Assembly (NCBI GenBank): GCA_949293295.1 | Contig: CASFCG010000018.1 | Location: 1-52,114, forward strand | Source of the DNA: an uncultured Cetobacterium sp. | GTDB lineage: Bacteria > Fusobacteriota > Fusobacteriia > Fusobacteriales > Fusobacteriaceae | DNA: 52,114 nt | Direction of reading: 5' to 3' | Shown here: positions 188-9,441 of the stretch, piece by piece | Numbering within the stretch: the stretch's first letter is position 1 | Layout: every line of letters starts with the position of its first letter | Notes under the pieces: generated by a model | What the model saw: only the letters and a program-made list of their open reading frames with translations | Database searches by the model: none | What the model was told of the DNA's origin: nothing | Program-made: the position numbers and the translations under genes

Positions 188-402
188 ATGCTCTAAGTTT
201 TGTAAGTTGTTTTTATATAAATAGTTATATCAATAAAAAACTTAGAAAAAATATTGGAATATAAAATTTAGTTACAAGATTTTCTTTTCATATTTCCTCT
301 TCTTTTCAATAAATGTATTAAGAAATAAGATGTACATCTTGTTAATGAATCTATATTATCATAATTTTTGAAAAAAATAATTATATTTCAAAAAAATAAA
401 AA

Positions 403-474: not shown

Positions 475-1518
475 ATGAAATTTAAAACGTCATATTTAGC
501 GAGTTTGCAAAAGTTAGAAGAAGATAGTTATCTGCTTGGATATGGAACTTTTCAAGATGAAATTTCGAAAGTAAAGGCAGAAAAAATCTACAAAATACTA
601 AATTACACTAAGATTGAACGAACAGAAAAAGAAATAAAAAAATTTTTAGAAAAAAATAAAATAGAAATGTCATTGACTGATTATTTATTGATACATAAGC
701 AATTAACTGTGACAGAATCATTGTTCCTAAAAACTGAGGCTCCAGAGTTTAAATCTTTCTTGTTTTTAGAGTCGATATTTGATAATGTGGAAAAAATTAT
801 TAAAAATTTTAGAAAAACTAATTTTTATATAATAGGTTGTGGAGGAATAGGAAATAATATATCTTACGCTATTGCTTCATATATGCCTAAAAAAATAGTT
901 TTGGTAGATGGAGATATAATAGCCAGTAGCAATTTGAATCAACAATTTTTATTTGACGAAAGATGTGTAGGAAAACCTAAAGCAGAAATTTTAACTGAAA
1001 AACTTAGGGCGAGATTTAAAGAGGTAGAAATTGAATATCATAATGAATTCTTAAATGAAAAATTATTAGAAAAGATAATTAATTCAGAAGAAAAAAATAT
1101 ATTTTTAATTTCGGGAGATGAGGGAAAAGTGTTGGAAATTGGAATGAAAATGGCAGTAAAAACTAAGAGTCCACTACTAAATATAGGGTATTTAAATGAT
1201 ATTTCAGTAATTGGTCCATTTTATATTCCTGATTTGTCAGCGTATCCATTTTGTAGTAATATAGGTGCTAGTGAAAATAATGAAAATAGTTTTAGAATAG
1301 ATAGTTATAGCCCACCATCAAGCTATATAAATAATACTTTAGCAACCAATATGGTTTTAATAGATATTTTGTATTTTTTAAAAGAAGAATATGACAAAAT
1401 AACTTCGTTAAATAAAAGAGTAGGAATAGAGTGTAAAAATTTTATAAAACAAGAGATTTTAGTAGCTAAAGCGGGAAAATGTGAAATATGTGGAGGTAGG
1501 AATGAAGATAACAAATAA
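475..1518 (+). CDS. MccB-like ThiF/E1-family adenylyltransferase (microcin C-type peptide modification)
   Basis: The 347-residue protein is an E1-like enzyme. The nucleotide-binding loop GCGGIGN is at 121-127, the acidic VDGD follows at 144-147, then SSNLNQQFLF and VGKPKAE, and ISGD ends at the likely Mg/ATP Asp214. Beyond the general ThiF fold it shares segments I recall from E. coli MccB: GYLNDISVIGPFYIP (238-252), SLNKRVGI (311-318) and a terminal CxxC (336-339), at nearly the same total length (about 350). MccB adenylylates the C-terminal Asn of a heptapeptide to make microcin C7. The N-terminal 110 residues match the position of MccB's peptide-clamp domain. One Cys of the first zinc pair is missing (AYPFC at 256-260). 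The next gene is an MFS exporter overlapping by 17 bp, as in mcc operons. Function is inferred; a related ThiF activity on another peptide is possible. Confidence 0.8.
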   Translation: MKFKTSYLASLQKLEEDSYLLGYGTFQDEISKVKAEKIYKILNYTKIERTEKEIKKFLEKNKIEMSLTDYLLIHKQLTVTESLFLKTEAPEFKSFLFLESIFDNVEKIIKNFRKTNFYIIGCGGIGNNISYAIASYMPKKIVLVDGDIIASSNLNQQFLFDERCVGKPKAEILTEKLRARFKEVEIEYHNEFLNEKLLEKIINSEEKNIFLISGDEGKVLEIGMKMAVKTKSPLLNIGYLNDISVIGPFYIPDLSAYPFCSNIGASENNENSFRIDSYSPPSSYINNTLATNMVLIDILYFLKEEYDKITSLNKRVGIECKNFIKQEILVAKAGKCEICGGRNEDNK

Positions 1519-2671
1519 GAAATCTTACTATTTCAATATATTTCTGGTAACAGTAGCTATAACTATTCCACATTCGATTTTGACAATAATATTGCTAGGA
1601 AAAGGAATAACCTTATCACAGATAGCTTTTATACAGTCGATGTACAGTCTAGCAATAATTTTATTTGAATTTCCTAGTGGAGTTTTATCTGATTTAACCT
1701 CAAGAAAGAAAATATATCTCTTGTCACTACTCTTTCAAATAATAGGGTTTTCCTTTATTTTATATTTTTCGAATTTTTATCTCTTGTGTGCAGCTTGGTT
1801 TTTATATGGGATATCTACAGCTTTAGATTCTGGAACTTTAGACTCCGAGATTTTGGTAGAATTAAAAAGCAAAAATGAGGATATAATGGACTTTATGAAA
1901 AACTCTGAGCAACTTAGGTTAGTAAGTGCTATTATTGGAGCAGGAAGTGGATTTTATCTATATAATAAGATTGATATTAATATTTATTATGTTTCCTTAG
2001 GATTTTTATTAACTTCATTAATTTGGGTATATACAACATTTAAAAGTGACAAAAGCGAGAAAAAACGTGAAACTGGAATAAAGAAACATATAAAAGAACT
2101 ACTTTTAGAAATAAGAGAAAAACCACAAATCAAATATTTAATAGTTGGAAAGGGGATTTTTCAGATATTTGTTCAAGTACATTTTCAATTTTGGCAAGGA
2201 ATATTTTTATATAAAAATATAAGTAAAGAGTATTTTTATCTGTTTTACTTAGTTTTTCAATTTGTAACTATTTTTTCGTACAAGACAAATATAAAAAAGG
2301 TAGATATAAAAAAGATGCTATTTTTATATGGGGTATGTTTAGTTACAATACTTTCTTTAAAGACAGAAGCTATTAATAATGTTGTGTTTTTAACTATGTA
2401 TTTTGCTATAGTGTTTATGATGTTTATAGTGAGTTATATTTATGACTACTGGTTTAATATTGTGATAGATATAGATAGAATAAGTTCTTTAACCTCTCTA
2501 ATGTCAACTATATCAAGAGTTTTTTCTTTTGCTACACTACTTATATTGGGAATAGAATTAAAGTATTTTTCAATAATTAATATATTTATAATAAATACAG
2601 TTCTGTCCCTGACACTTGTTCTAATAATATTCATAAAACTATATTTAAATTATAGTAAAGTGAAAAAATAA
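1502..2671 (+). CDS. MFS transporter, MccC-like putative exporter
   Basis: The start chosen is ATG 1502, preceded by GGAGG at 1492-1496, giving 389 residues. An upstream in-frame codon at 1481 has no binding site. The protein is highly hydrophobic with about 12 membrane spans and shows the MFS loop signature GVLSDLTSRKK (residues 60-70) between spans 2 and 3. It starts inside the 3' end of the mccB-like gene, so the two are translationally coupled. In microcin C clusters the MFS protein MccC exports the nucleotide-peptide and gives partial self-immunity. That role is inferred here from context only. No MccE/MccF-type immunity gene lies alongside. It may equally export another small molecule. 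Confidence 0.75.
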   Translation: MKITNKKSYYFNIFLVTVAITIPHSILTIILLGKGITLSQIAFIQSMYSLAIILFEFPSGVLSDLTSRKKIYLLSLLFQIIGFSFILYFSNFYLLCAAWFLYGISTALDSGTLDSEILVELKSKNEDIMDFMKNSEQLRLVSAIIGAGSGFYLYNKIDINIYYVSLGFLLTSLIWVYTTFKSDKSEKKRETGIKKHIKELLLEIREKPQIKYLIVGKGIFQIFVQVHFQFWQGIFLYKNISKEYFYLFYLVFQFVTIFSYKTNIKKVDIKKMLFLYGVCLVTILSLKTEAINNVVFLTMYFAIVFMMFIVSYIYDYWFNIVIDIDRISSLTSLMSTISRVFSFATLLILGIELKYFSIINIFIINTVLSLTLVLIIFIKLYLNYSKVKK

Positions 2672-6921: not shown

Positions 6922-8088
6922 ATGGCTAAAAGAGATTTTTATGAAGTATTAGGCGTTTCAAAAAATGCTTCTGATGCAGAGATAAAAAAAGCTTATAGAA
7001 AAGCAGCGATGCAATATCATCCAGATAAGTTCAGTGGAGCTAGTGAGAAAGAGAAAAAAAATGCAGAAGAAAAGTTTAAAGAGATAAATGAAGCTTATCA
7101 AATTTTATCAGATGAAAATAAAAAGGCTCAATATGATAGATTTGGACACGCTGCTTTTGAAAATGGTGGTGGAGCTGGAGGCTTTAACGGTAATTTTAGT
7201 GGTGGATTTGAAGATTTAGGAGATATTTTTAATTCTTTCTTTGGTGGAGGAGGTGGATTCGGGGGATTTGGTAGTTCAACATCCTATGAGAGAATGGCTC
7301 AGCCCGGAGAGGATTTAAGGTATAATCTTGAGCTTACTTTAGAAGAGGTAGCAAAAGGAGTAGAAAAAACTTTAAAATATAAGAGAAGAGGAAAATGTAA
7401 AAAGTGTAATGGAAGTGGAGCAGAGCCAGGAACACAACTAAAAACATGTTCTAAATGTAATGGAAGTGGTCATATAAAAGTTACACAAAATAGCTTTTTT
7501 GGAGCGATACAGACAGTAAAAGAGTGTGATGTTTGTCATGGAAAAGGAAAGATTCCGGAGAAGAAATGTAAATCTTGTCATGGAACGGGACTTGAAACAG
7601 AGGTTATAGAAAAAACTGTAAAAATACCGGCAGGACTAGAGGATGGACAAAAAGTAAGATTGGCAGGGATGGGAAATATAAGTTCTGAAGGTGGCGATAA
7701 TGGTGATTTATACATTTTTATAAAAGTAAAAAAACACCCGCTATTCGAGAGAGATGGAGTAGATATAGTTTGTGAGGTTCCAATCACATTTGCTCAAGCA
7801 ACTTTAGGAGCGGAGATTGAAATACCAACGTTAAATGGAAAGAAAACCATAAAGATACCAGCTGGAACACAAAATGATAAACTGTTTAGATTAAAAGGAG
7901 AAGGAATAAAGCATCCTAGAAGTCCGTATACGGGTGATGAGATAATAAAAGTGAAAATAGAGGTTCCAGTTAATTTAAGCAATGAACAAGAGGAACTTTT
8001 AAGGAGATTTGACGAGAGTTTAAAGGAAAAAAATCATAAAGAGAATAAGAGTTTTTTAAATAAACTAAAAGATTTTTTTCACAAGTAA
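6922..8088 (+). CDS. dnaJ: Chaperone protein DnaJ (Hsp40)
   Basis: The 388-residue protein has the full type I layout. The J domain carries HPD at 33-35. A Gly/Phe-rich linker spans about 75-118. Four zinc repeats CKKCNGSG, CSKCNGSG, CDVCHGKG and CKSCHGTG follow, then the C-terminal substrate-binding domains. GGAGG at 6907-6911 precedes the ATG. DnaJ stimulates the DnaK ATPase and delivers substrates. A good terminator follows 35 bases after the stop. Confidence 0.98.
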   Translation: MAKRDFYEVLGVSKNASDAEIKKAYRKAAMQYHPDKFSGASEKEKKNAEEKFKEINEAYQILSDENKKAQYDRFGHAAFENGGGAGGFNGNFSGGFEDLGDIFNSFFGGGGGFGGFGSSTSYERMAQPGEDLRYNLELTLEEVAKGVEKTLKYKRRGKCKKCNGSGAEPGTQLKTCSKCNGSGHIKVTQNSFFGAIQTVKECDVCHGKGKIPEKKCKSCHGTGLETEVIEKTVKIPAGLEDGQKVRLAGMGNISSEGGDNGDLYIFIKVKKHPLFERDGVDIVCEVPITFAQATLGAEIEIPTLNGKKTIKIPAGTQNDKLFRLKGEGIKHPRSPYTGDEIIKVKIEVPVNLSNEQEELLRRFDESLKEKNHKENKSFLNKLKDFFHK

Positions 8089-8123
8089 AGCAAAATATAT
8101 AAAAGTAATGAAGAAAATATTTT

Positions 8124-8156
8124 AAGCTGTAGACATTTTGTCAAACAGCTTTTTTA
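8124..8156 (+). terminator. Terminator after dnaJ
   Basis: AAGCTGT (8124-8130) pairs with ACAGCTT (8145-8151) and runs into a T tract. It isolates the heat-shock genes from the carAB promoter 23 bp further on. Confidence 0.88.
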
Positions 8157-8178
8157 TTGTAATCCAATGGTTTTATAT

Positions 8179-8207
8179 TTGACATTTAGAGGAAAAACAT
8201 ATATAAT
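8179..8207 (+). promoter_or_regulatory. Strong promoter of the carAB leader
   Basis: A perfect TTGACA (8179-8184), 17-bp spacer and perfect TATAAT (8202-8207). Transcription should start near 8214, so about 165 nt of leader RNA are made before carA. A consensus promoter upstream of an attenuator is the pattern of an operon controlled mainly by termination. Confidence 0.92.
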
Positions 8208-8242
8208 ATTTCTCAATGAATATAAAAAAGGTGGTGGAAAAG

Positions 8243-8386
8243 ATGAAAAAAAAGGCTAAGTTTTATTATAAAAGTGTCGATTTTTTGTTCTTTTCATCAT
8301 TTATATATTATTTAATGATTTTTATTTTAAAGTATGATTTTAAATCATACTTTTTTTTTAAAATTTTTATAGGAGGAAATGAATGA
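8243..8386 (+). CDS. carAB leader peptide, 47 codons, U-rich and running through the attenuator
   Basis: An ATG at 8243, preceded by AGGTGGTGG (8229-8237), opens a frame of 47 codons. It begins MKKKAKFYYKSVDF, continues with Phe/Tyr/Ile codons that make the transcript extremely U-rich, reads straight through the terminator hairpin at 8330-8359, and stops with TGA at 8384-8386, overlapping the carA ATG at 8383. A leader ORF that crosses the terminator and whose RNA contains U-runs for polymerase pausing is the arrangement of the E. coli pyrBI leader (44 codons), where low UTP stalls polymerase so the ribosome can block hairpin formation. That mechanism is inferred here. The peptide itself resembles nothing I know. 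Confidence 0.72.
   Translation: MKKKAKFYYKSVDFLFFSSFIYYLMIFILKYDFKSYFFFKIFIGGNE
8330..8359 (+). terminator. Attenuator (intrinsic terminator) in the carAB leader
   Basis: AAGTATGATTT (8330-8340) and AAATCATACTT (8342-8352) are perfect complements, followed by a run of nine T (8351-8359). The hairpin lies 24 bases before the carA start and inside the leader ORF. A ribosome translating the leader would cover the stem, which is the basis for the attenuation model. Confidence 0.9.
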
Positions 8387-9441
8387 ATGGAAAATTAATT
8401 CTGGAAAATGGTTTAACTTTTAATGGAACAATTTTTGGAACGCTGGGAGAGAGCGTAGGAGAGTTAGTATTTAATACTGGAATGACAGGATATCAAGAGC
8501 TTTTGACAGACCCATCATATGAAGGACAGATTGTTGTGATGACTTATCCTCTTATTGGTAATTACGGTATTAATTTAGATGATTTGGAATCTGACGGAGT
8601 TAAAGTGAGAGGATTTGTGATTAAAGAAGAAGCAAAATTGCCGAATAATTTTAGGTGTGAGATAACTTTGGAAGGTTTTTTGAGACAACATAACATAGTG
8701 GCTTTTAAAGGTATTGATACTAGATATTTAACAAAAGTTATTAGAGATAATGGTTCAATGAAAGCTATAATAACAGACAGAGATTTGACACAAAGTGAGA
8801 TTAAAGAGAGATTTGAGAGTTTTAATAATGATGATGCAGTTTCAAAAGTAAGTACAAAATTGATATATGAAATAAAGGGAGAGGGCTTGAGAATAGGAGT
8901 TTTTGATTTTGGAGTAAAAAAGAATATTCTCAGAAATTTCCAAAAAAGAGGATGTCATTTGGTGGTTTTTCCATGGGATACACCAGCAGATATTGTAAAA
9001 AATTACAATCTAGATGGTATCTTTTTGTCAAATGGTCCAGGAGACCCTGCAAAATTAACTGGTGTTATAGAAAATATTAAAAAATTTGTTGGAAAATTAC
9101 CAATAGTAGGAATTTGTTTGGGGCATCAACTTTTAGCATGGGCTCTAGGAGGAACTACGAAAAAATTAAAATATGGACATAGAGGTTGTAATCATCCAGT
9201 AAAAGATTTAGAGAAAAATAGAATTTTTATTACTTCACAAAATCATGGATATGTTGTAGATAAAGTGCCAGAATCTATGAAGATTACACATATCAATTTA
9301 AATGATAACTCTATTGAGGGGATGAAAAGTGATGAGTTAAAGATAGCTTGTGTTCAGTATCATCCAGAAGCTTGGCCAGGTCCGTCAGATTCAGAGTATT
9401 TATTTGATGATTTTTTAGATATTATAAGAGGAGGAAAATAG
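8383..9441 (+). CDS. carA: Carbamoyl-phosphate synthase, small (glutaminase) subunit
   Basis: The 352-residue protein has an N-terminal CarA domain (FNTGMTGYQELLTDPSY) and a class I glutamine amidotransferase domain. The nucleophile Cys245 is in VGICLGHQ, and His327 and Glu329 are in VQYHPEAWPGP. It hydrolyses glutamine and passes ammonia to CarB to make carbamoyl phosphate for pyrimidine and arginine synthesis. AGGAGG at 8371-8376 lies 6 bases before the ATG. The leader ORF's stop overlaps this start, so carA translation may be coupled to it. carB follows after 3 bases. Confidence 0.97.
   Translation: MNGKLILENGLTFNGTIFGTLGESVGELVFNTGMTGYQELLTDPSYEGQIVVMTYPLIGNYGINLDDLESDGVKVRGFVIKEEAKLPNNFRCEITLEGFLRQHNIVAFKGIDTRYLTKVIRDNGSMKAIITDRDLTQSEIKERFESFNNDDAVSKVSTKLIYEIKGEGLRIGVFDFGVKKNILRNFQKRGCHLVVFPWDTPADIVKNYNLDGIFLSNGPGDPAKLTGVIENIKKFVGKLPIVGICLGHQLLAWALGGTTKKLKYGHRGCNHPVKDLEKNRIFITSQNHGYVVDKVPESMKITHINLNDNSIEGMKSDELKIACVQYHPEAWPGPSDSEYLFDDFLDIIRGGK

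Follow-up and report, generated by a model that had tools for sequence, protein, structure and literature searches.

The window, that is, the whole stretch of 52,114 nt that was analysed, is one contig of a draft genome of 1.18 Mb and 82.8% completeness. It begins inside tuf, whose C-terminal part occupies positions 8-145, and hrcA lies at 2862, followed by grpE and dnaK. Between tuf and hrcA are two plus-strand genes, for which ORF calling returned the same coordinates (475-1518 and 1502-2671), 17-bp overlap and location as the earlier note had given. The second gene runs from an ATG at 1502 to a stop at 2671, the mechanical start being a GTG at 1481. The features of the region are the following:

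158-184, no strand assigned: terminator hairpin of tuf, terminator-like also for a minus-strand transcript (hairpin/terminator scan)
192-246, no strand assigned: hairpin downstream of MKRKSCN, with 92% complementarity between its 13-nt arms (hairpin scan)
268-291, minus strand: divergent precursor candidate MKRKSCN, 7 aa, with ATG start and C-terminal Asn (precursor scan, shuffles)
296-299, minus strand: Shine-Dalgarno (SD)-like GAGG, 4 nt ahead of the ATG of MKRKSCN, with no other SD-like site on either strand between 149 and 462
327-340, no strand assigned: 14-bp perfect palindrome AAGATGTACATCTT, the only exact copy in the genome data examined
475-1518, plus strand: MccB-like RRE-ThiF nucleotidyltransferase, 347 aa (ORF call, PDB, H. 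pylori alignment, RRE match, tree)
940-942, plus strand: codon CAA, encoding Gln156, which aligns with Arg157 of E. coli MccB (Arg in 39/39 other aligned rows)
1243-1245, plus strand: codon TAT, encoding Tyr257 where E. coli MccB has the zinc-type Cys257 (alignment)
1502-2671, plus strand: MccC-like MFS exporter, 389 aa (ORF call, homology)

By descent, the 475-2671 segment is almost certainly mccBC. The first protein is close in length to E. coli MccB (350 aa), and its top PDB matches are structures of that enzyme (E 6e-29), followed by E1 enzymes (about 1e-9) and by MoeB and ThiF (about 1e-5). Across residues 3-343 it is 37% identical to the MccB of an H. pylori plasmid. The motifs GYLNDISVIGPFYIP, SLNKRxG and a terminal CxxC, on which the earlier note had based its assignment to MccB, are indeed common to H. 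pylori and/or E. coli MccB. In a maximum-likelihood tree of 13 rows, the protein fell inside the MccB clade (support 98/94), in a subclade with the MccBs of H. pylori, Borrelia and another Fusobacteriota genome, G096 (99/97), and apart from the other ThiF-like enzymes found in Fusobacteriota. A housekeeping enzyme of the MoeB, ThiF or HesA type, activating a sulfur carrier and lying by accident beside an unrelated MFS pump, would also carry the PF00899 ThiF domain found here. Such an identity is practically excluded by the NCBIfam ThiF and MoeB models, the best of which reached 56 bits against cut-offs of 159-275, by the tree, and by a PDB ranking in which MccB leads by 20 orders of magnitude; the presence of an RRE and the kinship of the MFS protein with MccC also speak against it. 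The subfamily comparison recommended in the earlier note has come out in favour of MccB.

The N-terminal residues 3-99 match residues 4-97 of H. pylori MccB (28% identity, pairwise E 2e-12), which points to an RRE or peptide-clamp domain at the level of sequence. The fold, which the earlier note had proposed to predict, is unconfirmed: the AF2 model, built on a two-sequence alignment, had a mean pLDDT of 51 with a poorly modelled RRE region, and Foldseek ranked E. coli MccB first for this low-quality model. Comparisons with the E. coli MccB RRE (direct and profile) and with that of a related locus, L040 (profile), were not significant. The MFS protein is 36% identical both to H. pylori MccC and to the MFS protein of G096; its match in H. 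pylori P12 is annotated as MccC, and its plasmid matches are limited to Helicobacter, Borrelia and Borreliella records. Judged by homology, an exporter of the MccC type adjoins mccB, as in microcin-C-type clusters, where MccC exports the product (PMC7157772).

The Fusobacteriota origin assumed in the earlier note finds support in the neighbouring genes on the contig (hrcA, grpE, dnaK), of which hrcA is about 70% identical to that of genus members. Since mccBC, hrcA and core genes share one contig, the pair appears to be chromosomal and is not obviously a contamination. tuf is multi-copy and breaks the assembly: the window contig (C18) and C19 start, and C8 ends, in identical tuf 3' sequence. 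In the one genus member examined in detail, hrcA is preceded by a divergent, ptsP/ptsI-like gene (named by eye from its sequence), and in three relatives with comparable positions tuf is located about 12.5 kb from hrcA with its 3' end directed away from it. This spacing and orientation, together with the different gene upstream of hrcA, indicate that the gene order in the window is rearranged. The neighbourhood comparison suggested earlier recovered the mccB-mccC overlap in G096; MccB was absent at a comparable level from all 11 other genus genomes, and among 97 other Fusobacteriota genomes it occurred in G096 alone. A scan of the genome collection with the window MccB as query gave a single distant ThiF, and the phage records searched contained no match. 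Among the window ORFs of at least 150 aa, mccC ranks first and mccB third in AT-richness. Overall, mccBC were likely gained by horizontal transfer. No mccDE adjoin the pair, and the draft genome has no MccF-type gene (PF02016). The palindrome at 327-340 was considered as a regulator site and rejected, as an equally long one occurs in 17% of shuffles.

The earlier note overlooked two substitutions in MccB: a Gln at the universal Arg of the NLxRQ motif (Arg157 in E. coli) and a Tyr at the first Cys of the inner CxxC (Cys257). Besides the window protein, the alignment at Arg157 comprised E. coli MccB, Exiguobacterium and 37 ThiF-like ORFs (n=39), and three further H. pylori plasmid copies of MccB retain the equivalents of both residues. 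The window keeps 35 of the 39 MccB-invariant columns, including K170, D214, N241, D242 and R322, invariance being defined on six clear MccBs (two of them near-identical) and wider ThiF relatives only; the four changed columns are R157Q, C257Y, N95S and L134I, the last two conservative or of unknown weight. Of the ATP-site trio, Lys170 and Asp214 are in place and the Arg is replaced, and three of the four zinc-type cysteines (257, 260, 343, 346) remain. In the related enzyme EnfB, an Arg and a Lys at equivalent spacing are reported to be essential for ATP binding (PMC12250964, review). The window protein also has the longest terminal branch in its clade (1.08 versus 0.69-0.73). Both replacements and the long branch suggest relaxed constraint or altered chemistry, short of proving inactivity, and with Gln at the ATP site the protein is better labelled an MccB by descent than a working MccB. 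The active nucleotide-peptide product implied in the earlier note is thus unsupported, since at two functional positions the protein departs from an otherwise invariant residue, and the enzyme is probably weakened or dead today. Its decay, if any, would be recent, because both frames are intact and most of the invariant residues remain.

Altered chemistry might mean that the protein has shifted from nucleotidylation and become another kind of RiPP enzyme, comparable to EnfB, IndF or GrcB, which with changed ATP and zinc sites would act on the C-terminus of an unrecognised substrate. ThiF-like RiPP enzymes are versatile, deriving several chemistries from one adenylation step (PMC12150305, PMC12250964), and both replaced residues sit exactly in functional sites. 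Against this, the protein branches within MccB, near H. pylori, its MccB signature GYLNDISVIGPFYIP is intact, and the Arg persists in those ThiF-like enzymes of Fusobacteriota that fall outside MccB, so that its loss does not resemble a known specialisation; such a conversion therefore seems very improbable.

A central question for this locus is whether it has, or had, a precursor gene. MccA is usually 7, rarely 8 residues long, starts with Met, ends in Asn, is led by a strong SD and is found no more than 300 bp from mccB, the same strand being preferred (PMC6495379). The scan accordingly looked for SD-led peptides of 7-8 (or 17-56) aa with a terminal Asn inside about 300 bp of mccB, with preference for the mccB strand. 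It recovered the in-line MRTGNAN of E. coli and MKLSYRN of H. pylori and gave in-line candidates in Borrelia/Borreliella (MLGKNFN, MRGKTLN, MSGKTLN) and in G096 (GTG-started MIFTVVKN); the sequence upstream of mccB in L040 reads MLGKTRN, and the Exiguobacterium locus, with a more distant enzyme, yielded none. Every comparison locus having a precursor carries it on the mccB strand. On that strand of the window, there was no precursor and no SD-like word before the ribosome site of mccB; the in-line peptides MSIRGDYEI (456-485), MNLYYHNF (345-371) and MWKTVFKL...KIKI (2690-2782) were rejected, each being without an SD and a C-terminal Asn. The description of the pair as lacking a recognisable precursor, therefore, holds for the coding strand and is too strong for the locus as a whole, because the minus strand offers MKRKSCN.

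This heptapeptide (291-268, ATG AAA AGA AAA TCT TGT AAC TAA) lies 183 bp from the mccB start. Its SD-like site consists of overlapping GAGG and AGGA, the single such site on the minus strand and, besides that of mccB, the only SD-like word in the tuf-mccB intergenic region. No other ATG-started heptapeptide ending in Asn was found in 44.8 kb of intergenic DNA of the same genome (drawn from about 343 kb). In Markov shuffles, the SD-led feature had a P of 0.0007, and any start with 7-8 aa a P of 0.006; allowing for both strands and the places looked at, our own estimate is near 0.01. Such a low chance probability argues that the gene set is still complete. Its resemblance to known precursors carries little weight as evidence (P 0.19 for the best match, 0.028 for the mean). 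Two hairpins follow downstream on the same strand, one of them the tuf terminator read backwards. No promoter rose above chance on either strand: the TATAAT at 426-431 lacks a good -35, and three promoter-like sites compare with 3.2 in shuffles, so that the 'own promoter' of the earlier note was not borne out. An invertible mccA segment, bounded by imperfect repeats at 260-273 and 438-451, would put MKRKSCN in line; it was rejected, as such repeats occur in about half of the shuffles. A scan of viral contigs with a degenerate heptapeptide pattern gave three matches. There is about an even chance that MKRKSCN is, or was, the MccA of this mccBC.

If the system works, MKRKSCN would be expressed from its own minus-strand transcript, the Gln-bearing MccB would nucleotidylate its Asn and MccC would export the product. 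The right length, start, C-terminal Asn and SD of the peptide, its rarity, its exclusive SD-like words, the downstream hairpins with their terminator-like site and the intactness of both genes are all consistent with this. However, the in-line position of all comparison precursors, the weakness of the SD (GAGG at 4-nt spacing), promoter signals no better than chance and the R157Q and C257Y replacements render a working divergent system rather unlikely. If real, it would bring a new gene arrangement, with a divergent precursor, and a catalytic MccB variant without the Arg and with three Cys.

Alternatively, mccA may have been lost altogether, with MKRKSCN a coincidence, MccB dying and the MFS gene drifting or serving in generic efflux. 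The missing in-line precursor, the two substitutions at otherwise invariant functional residues, the long branch and the reduced, AT-rich draft genome agree with such a history, for which the frameshift-split mccB genes among the Borrelia relatives offer a parallel. Against it stand an SD-led heptapeptide of about 1% chance, 2.2 kb free of stops and frameshifts and the conservation of 35 of the 39 invariant residues, and we consider complete loss of the precursor possible but not probable. The estimates for the precursor and for the state of the enzyme overlap, because the precursor may be real while the enzyme has recently become impaired.

Taken together, the pair is interpreted as mccBC by ancestry, an operon of the minimal mccABC kind found on H. 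pylori plasmids. With the ATP-site Arg and one zinc-type Cys gone from its MccB, the locus is most likely much weakened or at an early stage of decay. In this family, MccB uses two ATP to adenylate the peptide at its C-terminal Asn, via a succinimide, and the microcin C product poisons aspartyl-tRNA synthetase once a cell has imported and trimmed it (PMC12250964); a precursor, an adenylating enzyme and a pump should suffice for production (PMC6495379). By analogy with the family, the N-terminal clamp of the ancestral MccB would have bound a short (formyl) peptide ending in Asn, for which the divergent MKRKSCN is the best candidate in this genome. The E1-like domain would then have spent two ATP on converting the Asn to an isoasparaginyl-nucleotide, MccC would have exported the product and peptidases of a sensitive cell would have freed an inhibitor of aspartyl-tRNA synthetase. 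In a decaying locus, MccC may still be of use as an efflux gene. The Arg157-to-Gln enzyme represents a natural test of whether MccB chemistry depends on the E1-type arginine.

Few lineages have yielded characterised peptide-nucleotide antibiotics, and the literature searched contained no report of a Fusobacteriota example. The window contributes an mccBC from this phylum, of the minimal mccABC kind already known, in a chromosomal position and in a lineage where the other sequenced members of the genus (n=11 checked) lack it. The search for relatives also led to a Fusobacteriota locus more complete than this one and to plasmid loci of Borrelia in which the heptapeptides are clear:

L037:6919-9254 (G096): apparently complete mcc locus, with mccB at 7012-8067 and mccC at 8064-9254
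L039:2507-4848, L041:1681-1704, L042:1652-1675, L045:1324-3647 and L046:1327-3650: Borrelia/Borreliella loci

Because its catalytic residues are kept and an in-line 8-aa precursor candidate is present, G096 is the better test case and a stronger Fusobacteriota microcin-C candidate than the window. On Borrelia/Borreliella linear plasmids, SD-led heptapeptides stand directly upstream of MccB-like genes, several of which are followed by MccC-like MFS genes; no publication on these loci was found in the literature searched. A putative viral contig from IMG/VR (L040:2749-5003) carries MLGKTRN, a terminator-like hairpin, MccB and an MFS gene, so that a mobile element may be carrying an mccABC-like set, unless the contig is in fact non-viral. 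Two Fusobacteriota genomes have tandem RRE-ThiF-like pairs beside a large ORF (L102:1370-5908, 364 + 363 aa; L103:1077-5476, 367 + 374 aa), with all four zinc-type Cys; the large ORF of L102 looks UvrA-like (780 aa) and might provide self-resistance in a RiPP cluster. In L004 (G018), residues 32-218 of the window MccB are matched at 34% through seven stop codons, which may represent a decayed relative, or the N-terminal part may be a chance match beside a 226-aa ThiF-like ORF.

Among known systems, the H. pylori plasmid mccABC (P12 plasmid HPP12, MccA MKLSYRN) resembles the window in MccB (37%, RRE included), in MccC (36%), in the B-C gene order and in the minimal set without MccD, MccE or MccF. 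It differs in being plasmid-borne rather than chromosomal, in having, 85 bp upstream, an in-line mccA led by a strong SD, where the window offers a divergent candidate, and in the Arg157 and Cys257 equivalents of its MccB. With E. coli microcin C7 (mccABCDEF; 3h5a, 3h5n, 3h9j, 6om4) the window shares the domain layout of MccB, Asp214, Lys170 and most invariant residues, at 25% identity over the alignment, whereas the mccDEF of C7 have no counterpart as adjoining mccDE or as a PF02016 gene in the draft genome. The MccB-MFS pairs of Borrelia/Borreliella plasmids form a sister group to the window protein in the tree (99/97) and have the MFS neighbour in intact copies, but they have in-line heptapeptides with a strong SD, and several copies are frameshift-split, neither of which is seen in the window. 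G096 comes closest, with the highest MccB identity (39-41%), an mccB-mccC overlap and chromosomal-type neighbours; in contrast to the window, its MccB retains the Arg and Cys residues, and MIFTVVKN lies in line, with the SD GAGGTGA and a hairpin before mccB.
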